Shown: positions 3,150-9,865 of the stretch, piece after piece
Position numbering within the stretch: position 1 is the stretch's first letter
Layout: each line of letters begins with the position of its first letter
Origin: Clostridiales bacterium
GTDB lineage: Bacteria > Bacillota > Clostridia > Christensenellales > Christensenellaceae
Direction: 5' to 3'
Assembly (NCBI GenBank): GCA_019420265.1
Contig: JAHZHM010000053.1
Coordinates: 1 to 10,296 of the forward strand
Length of the DNA: 10,296 nt
Position numbers and translations under genes: made by a program
The notes under the pieces: model-generated
Seen by the model: the letters and a program-made list of their open reading frames with translations, nothing else
Told to the model about the DNA's origin: nothing
Databases searched by the model: none

Positions 3150-3725
3150 ATGAACTTTTTAGAGGAGCGAAAGAAACTCGCGGCGCATCAGGCAGAGATG
3201 CTCACCAGTGTAGACCAGGCGGAGATCGACGCGCTGGCCGATGCCATGGTGGCGGCAAAGCGCATCTTCGTCTCGGGCTGGGGCCGCGCGGGCAACAATA
3301 TCAAAGTGCTGGCGATGGATTGCTCGCAGATTGGCCTTCGGGCTTATATCGTGGGCGATAACACCTGCCCTTCCATGCAGGAAGGCGATATTTTCATCAT
3401 CGGCTCGGGCTCGGGCGAGACAAAATCCATGGTTTTGTTCGCGAACCAGGCCAAAAGCCACGGCGTGAAAATCGGCCTGCTGGTGGGCAAGCGCGGCTCG
3501 ACGCTGGAGAGCCTTGCGGATTACACCGTGCATATCGATGATACCGTCATGATCGGCTCGGGCTACAAGCCGGATGCCGAGCTGACCGAGCTCTCCGCTC
3601 TGGTGCAGACCAGCGCGTTCTACCCCGTCATGCAGACGGTGGGCGACGTCATCCGGGCCTGCTGCGCCGTGCGCATTGGGGCAGATCGGCAGACCATCGC
3701 GAAAAACCACAGCAACGTGGAGTAG
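3150..3725 (+). CDS. SIS-domain protein, 6-phospho-3-hexuloisomerase (HxlB)-like, copy 2
   Basis: A 191-residue paralogue of the preceding SIS gene. The ATG follows AGGAGG (3137-3142) at 7 nt. It shares an identical block V-S-G-W-G-R-A-G-N-N-I-K (residues 41-52), C-P-S-M (73-76), the full S-G-S-G-E-T-K-S signature (86-93), Y-T-V-H-I-D-D (125-131) and the N-H-S-N-V-E C-terminus. Unlike copy 1 it retains Glu90 of the signature. However, it lacks the Glu-Gln pair (copy 1 residues 150-151) that aligns with the conserved F-E-Q of classical HxlB, having Ser-Ala there. An aldose-ketose isomerase role on a phosphosugar is inferred from the fold, and the exact reaction is unknown. It has its own promoter and terminator, so it is a separate transcription unit rather than an operon partner. 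Confidence 0.88.
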   Translation: MNFLEERKKLAAHQAEMLTSVDQAEIDALADAMVAAKRIFVSGWGRAGNNIKVLAMDCSQIGLRAYIVGDNTCPSMQEGDIFIIGSGSGETKSMVLFANQAKSHGVKIGLLVGKRGSTLESLADYTVHIDDTVMIGSGYKPDAELTELSALVQTSAFYPVMQTVGDVIRACCAVRIGADRQTIAKNHSNVE

Positions 3726-5259: not shown

Positions 5260-5942
5260 AGCGAAAAAACTCCGCCGTAAATCGGCGTATTGCCCGTCCA
5301 CCTGGCCCAGGCGCTGTTGCCGTAGTTGAAGTGCCACCACTCCACGCTGTCCGGAATAAACCCGGCGTCTATCATGGCAAAATAGAGCAAGCGGCGGTTC
5401 TGGCGGATGCGCTCGTCTCTGCCGGCGGCTTCGTAGTATTCCGGGAGCGCGGCATCGCCAAAATAGTCGAAGCCCGTCCCCATATCCAGCTCGGCTCCCT
5501 GCTCATCCACGATGGTCAGATCCACCGCGCCGCCCGTGGCATGCAGCGGCGGGAACAGCACATCGCTTCCCGGCGGAAACACGAACTTTTTCGTCTCCTC
5601 AAAAATCTCTTTCTCGGAAAGCGCCGGCTGCTTTTGCGCAATTTCCGCGGCATAGGCATCGAAAATCGCCTGCTGCACGGCCAGCGGCCGCCAGATATCC
5701 CAAAGTTTGAAGCGGTATCCCTCGGGCAAAGCCTTTGCCGCCTTTTGCAGGCGCTCCAGCACGCCCTCCCGGATATAGATTTCCTCTAATGCGCCGGGCA
5801 GGCCCTGGGCAAAATAGGCCGAAGCGCAGATAAACTCCCCCGGGCACTGCCTTTGAATGCAGACCAGCGCCTCGCCGTTCTCCTTTGCCGCCGCGGCAGA
5901 TTCCCGAACGCCCGGAAAAGGCGGAATGATTCTATGCTCCAA
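5256..5942 (-). CDS. D-alanyl-D-alanine dipeptidase (VanX/DdpX-type, peptidase M15D)
   Basis: A 228-residue zinc dipeptidase. The VanX-family features are all present: W-D-I-W-R-P (residues 81-86) with the substrate-stabilising Arg85, the zinc motif H134-A-T-G-G-A-V-D141, and V-E201-W-W-H204-F with catalytic Glu and the third zinc ligand. No signal peptide is visible, so it is predicted cytoplasmic. It should hydrolyse D-Ala-D-Ala. Outside van clusters such enzymes are thought to salvage D-Ala from peptidoglycan. The start is TTG at 5942: no ATG or GTG lies between it and the upstream in-frame stop, and AAGGGAG (5960-5954) is 11 nt away. It overlaps the HAD gene by 11 nt and the TfoX-like gene by 4 nt. 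No vanH- or vanA-type partner is adjacent, so glycopeptide resistance is not implied. Confidence 0.92.
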   Translation of the reverse strand: MEHRIIPPFPGVRESAAAAKENGEALVCIQRQCPGEFICASAYFAQGLPGALEEIYIREGVLERLQKAAKALPEGYRFKLWDIWRPLAVQQAIFDAYAAEIAQKQPALSEKEIFEETKKFVFPPGSDVLFPPLHATGGAVDLTIVDEQGAELDMGTGFDYFGDAALPEYYEAAGRDERIRQNRRLLYFAMIDAGFIPDSVEWWHFNYGNSAWARWTGNTPIYGGVFSL

Positions 5943-6606
5943 CGCGTGCGCATCTCCCTTCTGCTTCTATCTCCACGCTGCGAAAATCCTGATGGTATTC
6001 ATCGGCCGCCTGCAGGATGCCCTGCTCATCTTCCTTCGTCGTCTCATCCGCCATGGCGACGACATAAAAGCCCGCGGCTTTTGCCGTTTTGATGGCATAA
6101 TAGGCATCTTCAAAGACGACGGTATCCTCCTGCCGCTCGCCCATAAATTCCATGGCCTTCAGATAGATATCCGGAAATTCCTTGCCGCGGCCGACTTCCG
6201 TGCAGGTATAGATCTGAGCAAAGTAATCATACAGCCCAATTCTTTTGAGCGCCGCCTCGACGAGATAGCGGTCTGTCGCTGTGGCGGCGCAGATTTTTAC
6301 GCCGTTTTCCCGGAGCAGCTCCAAAAATTCCCGCACATAGGGCTTTGCCTCAATCGTGTGAAAATAGCGCTCTTCCAAAACTTTGTTGATCCCCTCGGCC
6401 ACTTCCTCCGTGCTCCCGGGAACGCCGTATTCCAGCCGGAATACATCCGCCGATTCCTGCAGGCTTAGGGGCTTGAGCTTGTCTTTGAGATCCGCCTTGG
6501 GCTTCTTGCCGAATCCATCCAGAAAAATCTCGAACATATGCCGCCAGTAGTACATCGAATCCAGAAGCGTTCCATCCAAATCAAAAATTGCTGCCTTTAA
6601 TCTCAC
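5932..6606 (-). CDS. HAD-superfamily hydrolase (phosphoglycolate phosphatase / beta-phosphoglucomutase-like)
   Basis: A 224-residue protein. I place the start at the GTG (6606), because TAAGGAG (6620-6614) is 7 nt upstream and the conserved motif I then begins at residue 8; the longer open frame to 6657 covers the promoter. Motif I is F-D9-L-D11-G-T, the two catalytic aspartates. Motif II is the I-C-A-A-T-A-T-D stretch (105-112), motif III is Lys142 in G-R-G-K-E-F-P-D, and motif IV is F-E166-D167-A. A helical cap of about 70 residues follows motif I, as in subfamily I HADs. It is likely a cytoplasmic phosphatase or phosphomutase on a small phosphorylated metabolite, and the substrate is not predictable. 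It is the first gene of the minus-strand operon with the dipeptidase. Confidence 0.92.
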   Translation of the reverse strand: MRLKAAIFDLDGTLLDSMYYWRHMFEIFLDGFGKKPKADLKDKLKPLSLQESADVFRLEYGVPGSTEEVAEGINKVLEERYFHTIEAKPYVREFLELLRENGVKICAATATDRYLVEAALKRIGLYDYFAQIYTCTEVGRGKEFPDIYLKAMEFMGERQEDTVVFEDAYYAIKTAKAAGFYVVAMADETTKEDEQGILQAADEYHQDFRSVEIEAEGRCARVGA

Positions 6607-6647
6607 GCGCGCTCTCCTTACCCAAAAAATAAAAACTTTCTGGCAAA

Positions 6648-6677
6648 ATGATACCATGCCGCTTTTTAGGTTGTCAA
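6648..6677 (-). promoter_or_regulatory. Sigma-A promoter of the HAD-dipeptidase operon
   Basis: On the minus strand a perfect -35 TTGACA (6677-6672) is followed after 18 bp by TATCAT (6653-6648), 5 of 6 matches to consensus. The predicted start near 6641 gives a 5' UTR of about 35 nt with a good Shine-Dalgarno before the GTG start. Confidence 0.8.
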
Positions 6678-6690
6678 AGAAAAGAAACGC

Positions 6691-6719
6691 TTGACATCGC
6701 TTTTTTTGCAGGGTATCAT
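6691..6719 (+). promoter_or_regulatory. Sigma-A promoter of the aro operon
   Basis: A perfect -35 TTGACA (6691-6696), a 17-bp spacer and TATCAT (6714-6719) make a near-consensus promoter. Transcription should start near 6726, about 22 nt before the leader ORF and about 227 nt before aroF. It diverges from the HAD-operon promoter, with 13 bp between the two -35 boxes. Confidence 0.88.
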
Positions 6720-6747
6720 AGGGTTAGTAAAAAAGAGGTAGCGCAAC

Positions 6748-6849
6748 ATGAAAAACTTCGCAAAGGCAGCTGCATATTATTACTTTTACTTTATCTACTT
6801 TATGGATAAAGTCTTTTCGCGTGTCACTGCCAAGGTTCCAAGTTTTTAA
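6748..6849 (+). CDS. Aromatic-amino-acid leader peptide (attenuation peptide) of the aro operon
   Basis: A 33-codon ORF, too short for routine gene calling. GAGGT (6735-6739) lies 8 nt before the ATG. Codons 10-18 read Tyr-Tyr-Tyr-Phe-Tyr-Phe-Ile-Tyr-Phe: five Tyr and three Phe codons in nine positions. Phe also occurs at 4, 23 and 33. It sits between a consensus promoter and an intrinsic terminator that precedes aroF. This is how leader peptides of ribosome-mediated attenuators are built (compare pheL and trpL of enteric bacteria). By inference, translation senses the supply of charged tRNA-Tyr and tRNA-Phe: stalling at codons 10-18 favours the antiterminator, while smooth translation favours termination. 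The peptide itself probably has no function. It is longer than pheL (15 residues) and ends 24 nt before the terminator stem. I saw no T-box features in this leader. Confidence 0.85.
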   Translation: MKNFAKAAAYYYFYFIYFMDKVFSRVTAKVPSF

Positions 6850-6891
6850 GCGCCGCCGAATCATCGGAAAGCAAATGCAGTGTGCGAAAAG
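6813..6891 (+). promoter_or_regulatory. Predicted antiterminator pairing of the aro attenuator
   Basis: CTTTTCGC (6813-6820) in the leader ORF is exactly complementary to GCGAAAAG (6884-6891), and CACTGC (6825-6830) to GCAGTG (6877-6882). That is 14 bp with one asymmetric internal loop (4 nt against 1 nt). The downstream partner covers half of the terminator left arm and its whole loop, so this structure and the terminator exclude each other. The upstream partner begins 12 nt after the last codon of the Tyr/Phe run, where a stalled ribosome would leave it mostly free. A classical protector hairpin is only weakly visible: GGCAG (6765-6769) with CTGCC (6827-6831). Confidence 0.75.
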
Positions 6892-6911
6892 CCGCTGCAT
6901 TTTTTATTTTT
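6873..6911 (+). terminator. Attenuator terminator upstream of aroF
   Basis: AAATGCAG (6873-6880) pairs with CTGCATTT (6895-6902). The stem continues inward with a G-U and a G-C pair, a bulged U, two more G-C pairs, and a GAAAA loop. It runs into TTTTTTATTTTT. It lies 42 nt before the aroF start and after the leader ORF, so it ends transcripts before any structural gene unless the antiterminator forms. Confidence 0.9.
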
Positions 6912-6952
6912 CCAAAGAGTTTCGTATTTCTATTTGAAGGAGCAGAAAAGCC

Positions 6953-7969
6953 ATGATCATCATCCTCAAAAGCAACCCAGATGAGCAGCAAAAGCAAAAC
7001 CTCATCACCTGGCTGCACAGCCTCGGGCTGGATACGCATATGAGCCAGGGCGAATACCAGACCATCCTTGGCCTTGTGGGCGATACTTCCAAAGTCGACC
7101 TGGACCTCATCAAGAGCCTGGAAATTGTGCAGGACGTCAAGCGCATCCGGGAGCCCTATAAGAACGTCAACCGGGATTTCCATCCGGATGATACCGTTCT
7201 GGATATCGGCGGGGCGAAAATCGGCGGGGGCAATTTCCAGTTCATCGCCGGGCCCTGCTCGGTTGAGAGCGAGGAACAGATCATCGAGGTGGCAAAGGCG
7301 GTGCAGGCTTCCGGCGCCCGGCTGCTGCGGGGCGGCGCCTTCAAGCCGCGCACTTCCCCCTATGCTTTCCAGGGCATGGGCGCAGAGGGCATCCGGCTGC
7401 TGCTGGAGGCCAAGCAGGCCACGGGCATGCCCATCGTAACCGAAATTATGAACATCTCCCAGCTGCCGCTGTTTGCGGATATCGATGTCGTCCAGGTGGG
7501 CGCGCGCAACATGCAGAACTTCGATCTGCTCAAGGAGCTGGGACACAGCGACAAAGTGATTCTCTTAAAGCGCGGCCTGGCCAACACGCTGGAGGAACTG
7601 CTCATGAGCGCGGAATACATCATGGCCGGGGGCAACGAGCGCATCATCCTCTGCGAGCGGGGCATCCGCACCTTCGAGACATATACCAGAAACACGCTGG
7701 ATATCTCCGCCGTTCCCCTCATCAAGATGAAATCGCATCTGCCCGTTGTGGTCGATCCTTCCCACGCTTCCGGGCATTCCTATCTGGTGGAGCCGCTGGC
7801 TCTGGCAGCCGCGGCCGCCGGCGCAGACGGGCTGATGATCGAGGTGCATAACGACCCTGCCCGGGCGCTTTGCGACGGCCCGCAATCCCTCTCGCCCAAG
7901 ATGTTCGACGAGGTGGCGGGAAAAGTCAAAAAGATCCTGCCTGTCGTGGGCAAAGAGCTTGGGAGGTAG
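6953..7969 (+). CDS. aroF: 3-deoxy-7-phosphoheptulonate (DAHP) synthase, type I-beta with N-terminal regulatory domain
   Basis: A 338-residue enzyme for the first step of the shikimate pathway, condensing phosphoenolpyruvate and erythrose-4-phosphate. GAAGGAG (6936-6942) is 10 nt before the ATG. Residues 1-70 form a ferredoxin-like domain like that of the Thermotoga maritima enzyme, where it mediates feedback inhibition by Tyr or Phe. The barrel follows: F-I-A-G-P-C102-S-V-E, L-R-G-G-A-F-K-P-R-T-S-P (125-136, PEP site), I-L-L-K-R-G (203-208), D-P-S-H271-A-S-G, M-I-E297-V-H and D308-G-P-Q-S. Cys102, His271, Glu297 and Asp308 correspond to the metal ligands. It is the first structural gene after the attenuator, so the pathway entry step appears controlled both by attenuation and, by family analogy, allosterically. 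The tyrA ribosome binding site lies in its last codons. Confidence 0.96.
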   Translation: MIIILKSNPDEQQKQNLITWLHSLGLDTHMSQGEYQTILGLVGDTSKVDLDLIKSLEIVQDVKRIREPYKNVNRDFHPDDTVLDIGGAKIGGGNFQFIAGPCSVESEEQIIEVAKAVQASGARLLRGGAFKPRTSPYAFQGMGAEGIRLLLEAKQATGMPIVTEIMNISQLPLFADIDVVQVGARNMQNFDLLKELGHSDKVILLKRGLANTLEELLMSAEYIMAGGNERIILCERGIRTFETYTRNTLDISAVPLIKMKSHLPVVVDPSHASGHSYLVEPLALAAAAAGADGLMIEVHNDPARALCDGPQSLSPKMFDEVAGKVKKILPVVGKELGR

Positions 7970-7973
7970 CGGC

Positions 7974-8810
7974 GTGAAAATCGGCATCATCGGCCTGGGG
8001 CTGATTGGCGGCTCCATGGCAAAGGCAATTACAGAGCACACGGATCACACGGTCCTGGGCGCAGATCTCGATTCCAGCGTCGTCCTCAAAGCAAAGATGA
8101 CCAAAGTGATCGAGCAGGAACTGCTGGAGGAGGATTTGCCCTCCTGCGATATGCTCATTTTGGCGCTCTATCCCAAGGCCACGGTGGAATATATCTCCGC
8201 TCACGCCGGGAAAATCAAGAAGGGCGCGCTGGTCATCGATTGCTGCGGCGTCAAGGAAGTGGTCTGCACGCCTGTGCGGAGCATTGCCGCAGAGCACGGG
8301 TTCACTTTCATCGGCGGGCATCCCATGGCGGGCACCGAGCATTCCGGCTTTGAATATTCCCTGGCCTCGCTATTTGCCGGCGCTTCCATGATTTTAACGC
8401 CCTACCCGGATCACGATTTGGCCTGCGTGGAATTTGCCAAGGAGTTTTTCCTGAAAATTGGCTTTGGCAGCGTTATCATCACGACGCCGCTCATCCACGA
8501 TAAGCGCATCGCCTTCACTTCCCAGCTGGCGCATATCGTCTCCAATGCCTATGTCAAAAGCCCGACGGCCATCAACTTCAAGGGCTTTTCCGCTGGCAGC
8601 TTCCGGGATCTCACCCGGGTTGCCTATCTAAACGAGACCATGTGGACAGAGCTTTTCCTGGAAAACAGGGAAAACCTGGCCGAAGAGATCGATTGCATCG
8701 TCCAGCGGCTGCAGGAGTATAGCGCGGCGCTCAAGGCTGAGGACGCAGAAACGCTCAGGCAGCTCTTAAAAGAGGGCAGAGAACTCAAGGAAAAGGTGGA
8801 CAGATTATGA
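7974..8810 (+). CDS. tyrA: Prephenate dehydrogenase
   Basis: A 278-residue protein. I choose the GTG at 7974: GGGAGG (7961-7966) is 7 nt upstream and the NAD-binding strand starts immediately, V-K-I-G-I-I-G-L-G-L-I-G-G-S (residues 1-14). The in-frame TTG at 7959 would precede that ribosome binding site. Other family marks are G-G-H116-P-M-A-G-T-E-H-S-G, F-T-S-Q-L-A-H187 and G-S-F-R211-D-L-T-R. It oxidatively decarboxylates prephenate to 4-hydroxyphenylpyruvate, committing carbon to tyrosine. There is no chorismate mutase domain and no C-terminal ACT domain, since the protein ends with the helical dimerisation domain. Allosteric control through ACT is therefore not expected, leaving the operon attenuator as the visible Tyr-responsive control. 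It is 4 bp after aroF, and its stop overlaps the aroB start by 4 nt (ATGA). Confidence 0.94.
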   Translation: MKIGIIGLGLIGGSMAKAITEHTDHTVLGADLDSSVVLKAKMTKVIEQELLEEDLPSCDMLILALYPKATVEYISAHAGKIKKGALVIDCCGVKEVVCTPVRSIAAEHGFTFIGGHPMAGTEHSGFEYSLASLFAGASMILTPYPDHDLACVEFAKEFFLKIGFGSVIITTPLIHDKRIAFTSQLAHIVSNAYVKSPTAINFKGFSAGSFRDLTRVAYLNETMWTELFLENRENLAEEIDCIVQRLQEYSAALKAEDAETLRQLLKEGRELKEKVDRL

Positions 8811-9865
8811 GAAATGTGCATATTCCCCTCAGGGAGGGCTATGAGATTCTGATCGGGCCGGGCCTGTTGGGCCAAGCGGGCGCGCGCATCGCCGAACAAT
8901 TCTCGCCCAGCCGCATCGCTGTCATTACAGAGGGCACGGTAGACGCGCTTTATGCAGATGCGCTTCTCTCTTCCCTGCAAAAAGCGGGATTCGCACCCTG
9001 CAAATATGTGTTCCCGGCAGGCGAAGCCAGCAAAACGCTTGCGACTTACGCCGATATTCTGGAATTTCTTGCCCGGCATGAGCTGGACCGCAAATCGCTC
9101 ATCGTCGCCCTGGGCGGCGGCGTGACTGGGGATATGGCCGGGTTTGCCGCGGCGACTTATATGCGCGGCACCCCCTATGTGCAAATTCCCACCACCCTGC
9201 TGGCCGCCATCGATTCTTCCGTGGGCGGCAAGACGGCGGTGGACCTTTCGGCGGGCAAAAACCTGGTAGGCGCCTTCCATCAGCCCAGCCTGGTGCTTTG
9301 CGATACGGATACACTGGAAACGCTCTCCCCCGAAATTTTCGCAGACGGCGCCGCCGAAGCCATCAAATACGGCGTGCTGGATTCCGCCGCGCTTTTTGCG
9401 CAGATCCGGGATCACAAAATCGGCGCGGACCGGGAGGAGATCATCGAAAAATGCGTGTCCATCAAGCGGGACTACGTCGTGGAAGACGAGCGGGATACCG
9501 GCGCGCGCCAGTTCCTCAATCTCGGCCACACCATCGGCCACGCCATCGAAGCTTGCAGCAATTTCACCATCTCGCACGGCCATGCCGTGGCCATTGGCAT
9601 GGTGCTCATGGCCCGGGGCGCGCACCGCGCAGGGCTGCTGGCAGAGGATTGCTCCGCGGAAATTGCCGCGGCCGCGGCCGCCTTTGGCCTGGATACCCGC
9701 TGCCCTTATGACGCCGGAGCGCTTTATGCCGCCTCGCTCAGAGATAAAAAGCGCGGCGGCGCCAGCATCACACTGGTGCTGCCCGAACAAATCGGCAAAT
9801 GCCGGCTAGAAAAGGTCTCTATGCAAACGCTGGGCGAGATCATCCGCCTGGGAGTGGAGGCATAA
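8807..9865 (+). CDS. aroB: 3-dehydroquinate synthase
   Basis: A 352-residue enzyme that cyclises DAHP to 3-dehydroquinate using catalytic NAD+ and a divalent metal. The NAD-binding motif G-G-G-V-T-G-D is at 103-109. P-T-T-L-L-A-A-I-D-S-S-V-G-G-K-T-A-V-D (128-146) and K-N-L-V-G-A-F-H-Q-P (151-160) are family hallmarks. The metal ligands are visible as Glu184 (A-A-E-A-I-K-Y-G), His241 (N-L-G-H-T-I-G-H) and His257 (S-H-G-H-A-V-A-I-G). Length is normal and no key residue is missing. The start overlaps the tyrA stop as ATGA, with AGGTGG inside the tyrA end (8794-8799), so translation is probably coupled. The stop overlaps the aroA start by one base (TAATG). Confidence 0.97.
   Translation: MRNVHIPLREGYEILIGPGLLGQAGARIAEQFSPSRIAVITEGTVDALYADALLSSLQKAGFAPCKYVFPAGEASKTLATYADILEFLARHELDRKSLIVALGGGVTGDMAGFAAATYMRGTPYVQIPTTLLAAIDSSVGGKTAVDLSAGKNLVGAFHQPSLVLCDTDTLETLSPEIFADGAAEAIKYGVLDSAALFAQIRDHKIGADREEIIEKCVSIKRDYVVEDERDTGARQFLNLGHTIGHAIEACSNFTISHGHAVAIGMVLMARGAHRAGLLAEDCSAEIAAAAAAFGLDTRCPYDAGALYAASLRDKKRGGASITLVLPEQIGKCRLEKVSMQTLGEIIRLGVEA

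Follow-up and report, generated by a model that had tools for sequence, protein, structure and literature searches.

A predicted leader-peptide attenuator with a mixed run of Tyr and Phe codons upstream of the aroF operon in Clostridia

The 10,296-nt stretch of Clostridiales DNA analyzed here (the window) raises the question of what a short open reading frame (ORF) crowded with Tyr and Phe codons does between a promoter and aroF, the first gene of an aromatic amino acid operon. In enteric bacteria, the pheL, trpL, and hisL attenuators combine a short ORF carrying codons for the end product with four RNA segments and an intrinsic terminator. Judging from the ORF, the codon run, the terminator, the predicted alternative pairings, the conservation in relatives, and the content of the operon, the leader in the window is very likely a ribosome-mediated transcription attenuator of the same trp/phe type, which would sense both Tyr and Phe.

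All parts of the leader are on the plus strand. As the original prediction had it, a consensus-like promoter of the sigma-70 type, TTGACA-17-TATCAT (positions 6691 to 6719, 11/12 matches), precedes the ORF, and transcription is predicted to start around position 6726. The mRNA leader contains a short translatable ORF with a ribosome-binding site: a Shine-Dalgarno-like GAGGT (6735 to 6739) is found eight bases upstream of an ATG (6748) that opens 33 codons, closed by a TAA at 6847 to 6849 (ORF, 6748 to 6849; translation, MKNFAKAAAYYYFYFIYFMDKVFSRVTAKVPSF). Codons 10 to 18 (6775 to 6801) read YYYFYFIYF, a run with 8/9 codons for Tyr and Phe, the end products of the operon; the ORF and its run were confirmed exactly as they had been described. 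Between the ORF and the first gene there is an intrinsic terminator with a bulged stem (6873 to 6882 paired with 6893 to 6902) and a U-rich tail that extends to approximately 6909. The hairpin folds at -16.1 kcal/mol (z = -2.6; equalled by 6 of 200 shuffles) and the tail ends ∼43 nt upstream of aroF, in agreement with the strong terminator that had been placed 42 nt before this gene. The bulged hairpin was absent from the output of a simple generic terminator scan.

The upstream neighbor, an ORF for a HAD-type phosphatase (5932 to 6657), has the opposite orientation, so the leader is very likely the start of a separate transcript. A divergent promoter-like pair (6648 to 6677, minus strand, 11/12) stands back to back with the leader promoter and overlaps the 5' end of the phosphatase ORF as listed; the true start of that ORF is probably below 6648. 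Elsewhere in the window, the adjacent ORFs 2368 to 2952 (194 amino acids [aa]) and 3150 to 3725 (191 aa) are similar by eye and are probably tandem duplicates.

Downstream of the leader, the plus strand encodes AroF (6953 to 7969; PRK08673.1, 481 bits; TIGR01361, 385 bits), the DAHP synthase, which is the first enzyme of the shikimate pathway; a prephenate dehydrogenase-like TyrA (7959 to 8810, start codon approximate); the 3-dehydroquinate synthase AroB (8807 to 9865; TIGR01357, 356 bits); and the EPSP synthase AroA, which was recognized by tblastn with the aroA of locus L003 (Angelakisella massiliensis, a cultured relative) as the query and runs from 9799 (start codon approximate) to 10296 and beyond the window end. 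Gaps between these genes are small or absent. AroF and AroB pass the NCBIfam cutoffs, whereas the best match of TyrA, NF006307, scores 167 bits, below the equivalog cutoff of 295.

Conservation of the leader was examined in a first set of loci, obtained by an AroF scan of genome contigs and comprising the best 80 of 586 relatives. Their AroF proteins are 63 to 74% identical to the query in the best segment, and their titles are mostly those of metagenome-assembled genomes (MAGs) of Clostridia/Oscillospiraceae, with a few from Treponema or Spirochaetales. An ORF at most 330 bases upstream of aroF with at least 5/9 Tyr, Phe, or Trp codons was counted as a leader. Such an ORF was found at 67 of the 81 loci (the 80 relatives and the window), and in 65 of the 67 a hairpin plus U tract lies downstream of it, as judged by a looser terminator script that also passed some clearly spurious terminators in the draw around locus L037 (see below); a strict script missed several terminators in relatives. 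These counts support the attenuator reading of the original prediction. The remaining 14 of the 80 close relatives have no such leader, and an Rfam scan of 12 of them returned nothing except four tRNAs in L046; the same scan took in L017 and L062, which were afterwards counted as leader loci. When only Tyr and Phe codons were counted, 40 of the 81 aroF loci reached 7/9, compared to none of 671 control regions, and 66 of the 81 reached 5/9, compared to 17 of 671, where the controls were the regions upstream of other ORFs of at least 600 bases at the same loci, whether real genes or not. The leader is therefore more than a chance occurrence.

These comparisons also bear on the possibility that another factor (a protein, a small ligand, or Rho/NusG effects) controls the terminator, in which case the ORF would mainly serve translation coupling or have arisen as a side effect of a pyrimidine-rich spacer. 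Pyrimidine-rich DNA does favor Tyr and Phe codons, and translation of a leader may raise downstream expression, as indicated in part of PMC4833913. However, the 9-codon windows, which were picked in the leader frame, contain 6.8/9 Tyr/Phe codons in that frame and fewer than two in either of the others (1.8 and 1.5), and the complete lack of 7/9 runs in the control regions points the same way. Ribosome-binding sites are also enriched in the family: at least 4 nt of AGGAGGTGA were present in 55 of 65 leaders with terminators, compared to ∼11 expected from shuffles, a contrast that is somewhat inflated by the choice of the best-matching start for the leaders and of none for the shuffles. Finally, an Rfam scan of the whole window at gathering thresholds matched no family, and one of positions 6690 to 6960 gave no matches at E values up to 1, the Phe and Trp leader families included. 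Such alternative control is accordingly quite improbable.

Both Tyr and Phe are present in 66 of the 67 leader windows (means of 3.6 Tyr and 3.2 Phe codons), in line with the proposal that the mixed codons serve the sensing of both end products, a function that they would have under the attenuator reading. The residues outside the run are very divergent among the loci, with common tails in some subgroups, and the ORFs range from 15 to 40 aa. The pattern suggested as a check on the original prediction, a Tyr/Phe run that is kept while the rest of the peptide drifts, was thus observed in the relatives, and in the leader frame only. It also speaks against an arrest peptide similar to TnaC, in which the nascent Tyr/Phe-rich chain would stall the ribosome in response to free Tyr or Phe, with the peptide sequence as the sensor. 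The nascent chain is indeed rich in aromatic residues, and a fixed C-terminal FYYGV or similar ending is frequent in the draw around L037. Yet Tyr and Phe interchange freely, the other residues and the length vary, and by eye no motif outside the run is common to the group of the window; in addition, a biosynthetic operon induced by its own product would be switched on just when it is not needed. This alternative appears slightly less probable still than the previous one.

In the relatives, the operon usually extends further than the aroF-tyrA-aroB-aroA arrangement that had been proposed, which holds in the window, albeit with a tyrA below its equivalog cutoff. Downstream DNA of 5.5 kb or more was available for 49 leader loci (18 of the 67 were too short); of these 49, 34 have the order aroF-tyrA-aroB-aroA-aroC-pheA and 39 have pheA. 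Prephenate dehydratase was found in 13 of 14 whole genomes, in 11 of these 13 on the same strand and at most 7 kb downstream of aroF; in G162, it is on a different contig from aroF, and in G201, it is upstream of a second aroF copy. The usual operon in the relatives makes both Tyr and Phe. A search for trpE with TIGR00564 at E values up to 0.001, which covered 61 first-set leader genomes and left out five first-set leader loci, detected the gene in just 5 (1 of 2 [absent from G001, present in G002], 3 of 20, and 1 of 39) and not in the other 56. Many of these genomes are MAGs of unstated completeness, but absences this numerous are unlikely to be assembly gaps and suggest that Trp auxotrophy, or another route to Trp, is common in the first-set leader genomes (L001 to L080). 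For a pathway that yields Tyr and Phe without Trp, a sensor of Tyr and Phe alone would be enough.

The way in which such a sensor would work, including translation of the leader, ribosome stalling, in vivo termination and readthrough, and the response to the tRNAs, is what we infer from the predicted pairings of four segments. Segment 1 is GGCAG (6765 to 6769), just upstream of the codon run, and was located by the fold of the free leader and the swap test of 1:2 pairing described below. Segment 2 (6815 to 6831), the 5' side of the antiterminator, was located by the fold with a stalled ribosome and by duplex prediction and is made up of TTTCGCG (6815 to 6821) and CACTGC (6825 to 6830). Segment 3 (6873 to 6889) includes the 5' arm of the terminator and, at 6877 to 6889, the part that pairs with segment 2; segment 4 (6893 to 6909) consists of the 3' arm and the U-rich tail. 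With both Tyr-tRNA and Phe-tRNA charged, the ribosome would pass codons 10 to 18 and reach the stop codon; 1:2 would pair or segment 2 would be covered, the 3:4 terminator would form, and transcription would end before aroF. With either tRNA uncharged, the ribosome would stall within the run and cover segment 1, leaving segment 2 free to pair with segment 3 ahead of the synthesis of segment 4; the terminator would then be blocked and the Tyr/Phe operon transcribed.

Folding models of the window fit this scheme in most respects. In the free leader, GGCAG pairs with CTGCC (6827 to 6831) and the terminator is formed; the full leader of 190 bases folds as 1:2 plus 3:4 with a z score of -3.55, and none of 200 shuffles was as good. 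For a ribosome in the middle of the run and an RNA that still lacks segment 4, the model folds 2:3 at -19.0 kcal/mol, pairing 6815 to 6821 and 6825 to 6830 with 6877 to 6889 and consuming the terminator's 5' arm. When the ribosome is placed at the stop codon instead, the terminator is the only structure predicted to form. The complete RNA favors the terminator in the model even with a stalled ribosome, so the switch would need the cotranscriptional order in which 2:3 forms first. Known attenuators depend on the same order. The number of nucleotides of segment 3 predicted to be sequestered in the window is 9.3 with a stalled ribosome, 9.0 without a ribosome, 3.3 with the ribosome at the stop codon, and 6.1 after shuffling; the closeness of the first two values counts against a clean three-state switch at this one locus.

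Across the 65 first-set leaders, the predicted contrast is clearer: a stalled ribosome leaves on average 9.0 nt of segment 3 sequestered, compared to 6.9 nt with a shuffled spacer (the stalled value is higher in 59 of 65), 6.4 nt without a ribosome (higher in 60 of 65), and 5.6 nt with the ribosome at the stop codon (higher in 56 of 65), the last difference being partly trivial as less RNA is on offer in that case. The direction was the same in 16 and 8 leaders from the draws around G001 and G002, respectively. In 56 leaders, native partner segments gave stronger pairing than did partners exchanged with those of unlike leaders, with a mean z score of -0.83 for 2:3 (P = 3.8e-5) and -1.17 for 1:2 (P = 6.1e-11), P values that ignore common ancestry. 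In this test, the window has a rank of 0.25 for 2:3, a pairing that beats about three quarters of the swapped partners and no more, and a rank of 0.13 for 1:2. Locus by locus, 2:3 had a z score below -1.5 against shuffles in only 19 of the 56. With 2:3 weak at many single loci, it is the pooled tests that carry the argument.

Alignment A1, consisting of 14 leaders selected for a similar segment 2 rather than of all leaders, contains changes on both sides in 3/7 pairs of 2:3 and 6/8 pairs of 3:4. For 2:3, the observed values were reached by 13 of 500 shuffles for the pairing percentage, 43 for the count of both-sided changes, 239 for the count of pair types, and 2 for the covariation score; for 3:4, the respective numbers were 0 for the percentage, 2 for the both-sided changes, and 0 for the covariation score, all in tests made without correction for ancestry. 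Slid partners paired worse in both cases. The covariation of 2:3 is modest. Mutually exclusive 1:2, 2:3, and 3:4 pairings are hence found by prediction, more weakly at individual loci.

In Firmicutes, T-boxes or TRAP had been named as the better-known control of aromatic amino acid genes. T-boxes are indeed common in the related genomes, being found in 12 of 14 (11 above the cutoff) and in 20 of 20 (18 above the cutoff), but among the T-boxes listed for the 12 genomes, none is near aroF; at aroF, these bacteria therefore appear to use the leader peptide rather than a T-box. In genomes with trpE, this gene is directly preceded by a T-box match in 7 of 9 (G020, G105, G107, G162, and, below the cutoff, G077, G112, and G194) and, in a second genome set, in at least two of three (G358 and G367, both below the cutoff). 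A scan for a short T-box motif found it upstream of aroF at 1 of the 141 loci of the tree discussed below (L104, which is not a leader locus) and at 2 of 38 usable loci with more distant AroF proteins. The attenuator very probably sits where a T-box might be expected; that it is itself a diverged T-box or another tRNA-binding riboswitch is by far the least likely of the alternatives, common as T-boxes are in these genomes, given that RF00230 has no match within the window, that none is listed near aroF in the 12 genomes, and that the predicted start and the terminator are only ∼150 nt apart, compared to the 219 positions of the model.

Some leaders include Trp codons. A hand count over 81 searched genomes (61 from the first set, 16 from the G001 draw, and 4 from the G002 draw) found a Trp codon in the leader in 16, of which 9 have trpE (L085, L094 to L097, and L099 to L102) and 7 gave no trpE match (L025, L030, L032, L079, L086, L172, and L199), whereas among the 65 without a Trp codon, trpE was matched in 9 (L010, L037, L053, L059, L070, L082, L083, L098, and, as broken fragments, L093). 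That Trp codons follow trpE is a tendency, confounded with lineage, and not a rule. The leaders of L094 to L097 and L099 to L102 contain Trp as well as Tyr and Phe codons, and several have a recurring SAG(F/Y); all 8 of their genomes have trpE matches, but outside this group the codons and the gene do not coincide.

Beyond the closest relatives, leaders were looked for in two draws, each represented by the 30 loci with the best matches rather than by a random sample. In the draw of 199 genomes from the phylum of G001, 18 of 30 loci reach 5/9, 16 of them with a terminator; in the other draw, made up of 149 genomes from the phylum to which G002 (the genome of the Treponemataceae-titled L037) belongs, 21 of 30 reach 5/9, 9 of these 21 with a hairpin that passed the script, some of them spurious. 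A more distant set (L111 to L170) comprised 60 regions, 22 of which were dropped for having only a short aroF piece with no usable BLAST hit; 3 of the remaining 38 reach 5/9 and look like chance, so the leader system is not universal in Clostridia. On a FastTree tree of 141 AroF proteins, the label of leader plus terminator changes 19 times, compared to 41.8 times for shuffled labels. The AroF proteins of L029 (Treponema-titled) and L037 group, with low support, among Clostridia-titled ones, and their leaders go with them. The AroF and leader of L172, from the phylum draw around L037, also group with Clostridia-type sequences. This placement fits horizontal transfer of the operon together with its leader, or else misbinned MAGs.

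Within the draw around L037 (L173 to L194), FYYGV-stop or a similar ending closes many aroF leaders, such as those at 2480 to 2740 of L178 (minus strand) and 1240 to 1510 of L192. A hairpin overlaps their stop codon, and mostly no terminator was found downstream. The hairpins GGCGT-TTAA-GACGCC (L178) and GGTGT-CTA-ACACC (L192) show compensatory changes by eye. These leaders may represent a different design.

The kind of system described here is known; its breadth, the mixed codon run, and the contrast with T-boxes appear to be new. With pheL, trpL, and hisL, the leader in the window shares an ORF of end-product codons, four alternating segments, and a terminator before the first structural gene. 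It differs in having codons for two amino acids, including Tyr, mixed in one run, in belonging to Clostridia, in preceding a whole Tyr/Phe operon, and in matching no Rfam leader. The enteric ilvL and thrL are multivalent leaders, with codons for more than one end product; they likewise have codons for several end products in one leader, but those are of the branched-chain and threonine pathways.

The idea itself has precedents, in PMC6429828 and PMC8632094, as far as the consulted parts of the two papers go. The legend to Fig. 6 of Stav et al. 2019 (PMC6429828) mentions two upstream ORFs (uORFs) at shikimate genes that encode Phe and Tyr, as the leader in the window does, and come from at least one of five genomes, including Clostridium novyi and Thermovirga lienii. 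The portions of that text dealing with them give no organism or gene and contain no analysis of conservation, a pairing switch, the operon, or T-boxes; the uORFs may belong to the same family as the leader described here. The uORFC-13-1 motif (PMC8632094, 2021) is described as a short ORF with Phe codons and an intrinsic terminator upstream of aroF, with attenuation proposed, but according to the relevant entry, its 24 examples are from Acholeplasma and environmental sequences only, with at least one Phe and no Tyr run reported. A table in PMC2659441 lists a proposed Tyr-tRNA attenuator at aroF of E. coli and Shewanella, citing work on E. coli from 1980; it too would sense Tyr-tRNA but is proteobacterial, and the table describes no aroF leader peptide. 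Leader-peptide attenuation, described in Proteobacteria and Actinobacteria in part of PMC1262725, has also been reported in T-box-rich Firmicutes, in excerpts on the ilv operon of Staphylococcus aureus, with predicted leaders in Lactococcus and Streptococcus (PMC5794164), and on Bacillus hisZ/hisS (PMC2965389), although with branched-chain or histidine codons and in other genes and lineages. The tyrosine operon of the Bacillus cereus group carries a T-box, as stated in a section of PMC2494555; this is also control of Tyr synthesis at the RNA level in Firmicutes, but by tRNA binding without a leader peptide. In the main text of PMC11109978, aroF, tyrosine, and phenylalanine do not occur. Among the matches listed for the open-license literature, none deals with leaders of this family in Oscillospiraceae, with their pairing switch, or with the contrast to T-boxes.

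A broader reading, to which we give somewhat less than an even chance, is that these leaders form a widespread, as yet unnamed class of aromatic sensors with two inputs (or possibly three in some lineages), located at aroF in those Clostridia of the gut whose T-boxes serve other genes, moved with the operon into Treponema-like bacteria, and with a codon set that tends to follow the aromatic amino acids made. If so, a single ribosome would read a mixed Tyr/Phe run, and shortage of either amino acid would open the whole pathway. The data suggest that a large part of gut Clostridia control their main aromatic pathway by leader-peptide attenuation, a mechanism known above all from enteric bacteria, and do so beside T-boxes in the same cell. 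The system would offer a test case for a ribosome that integrates two amino acid signals in one codon run and a possible role for short ORFs and terminators upstream of aroF. Tyr and Phe are precursors of host-active metabolites, and the leader may provide a handle on when gut bacteria make them.
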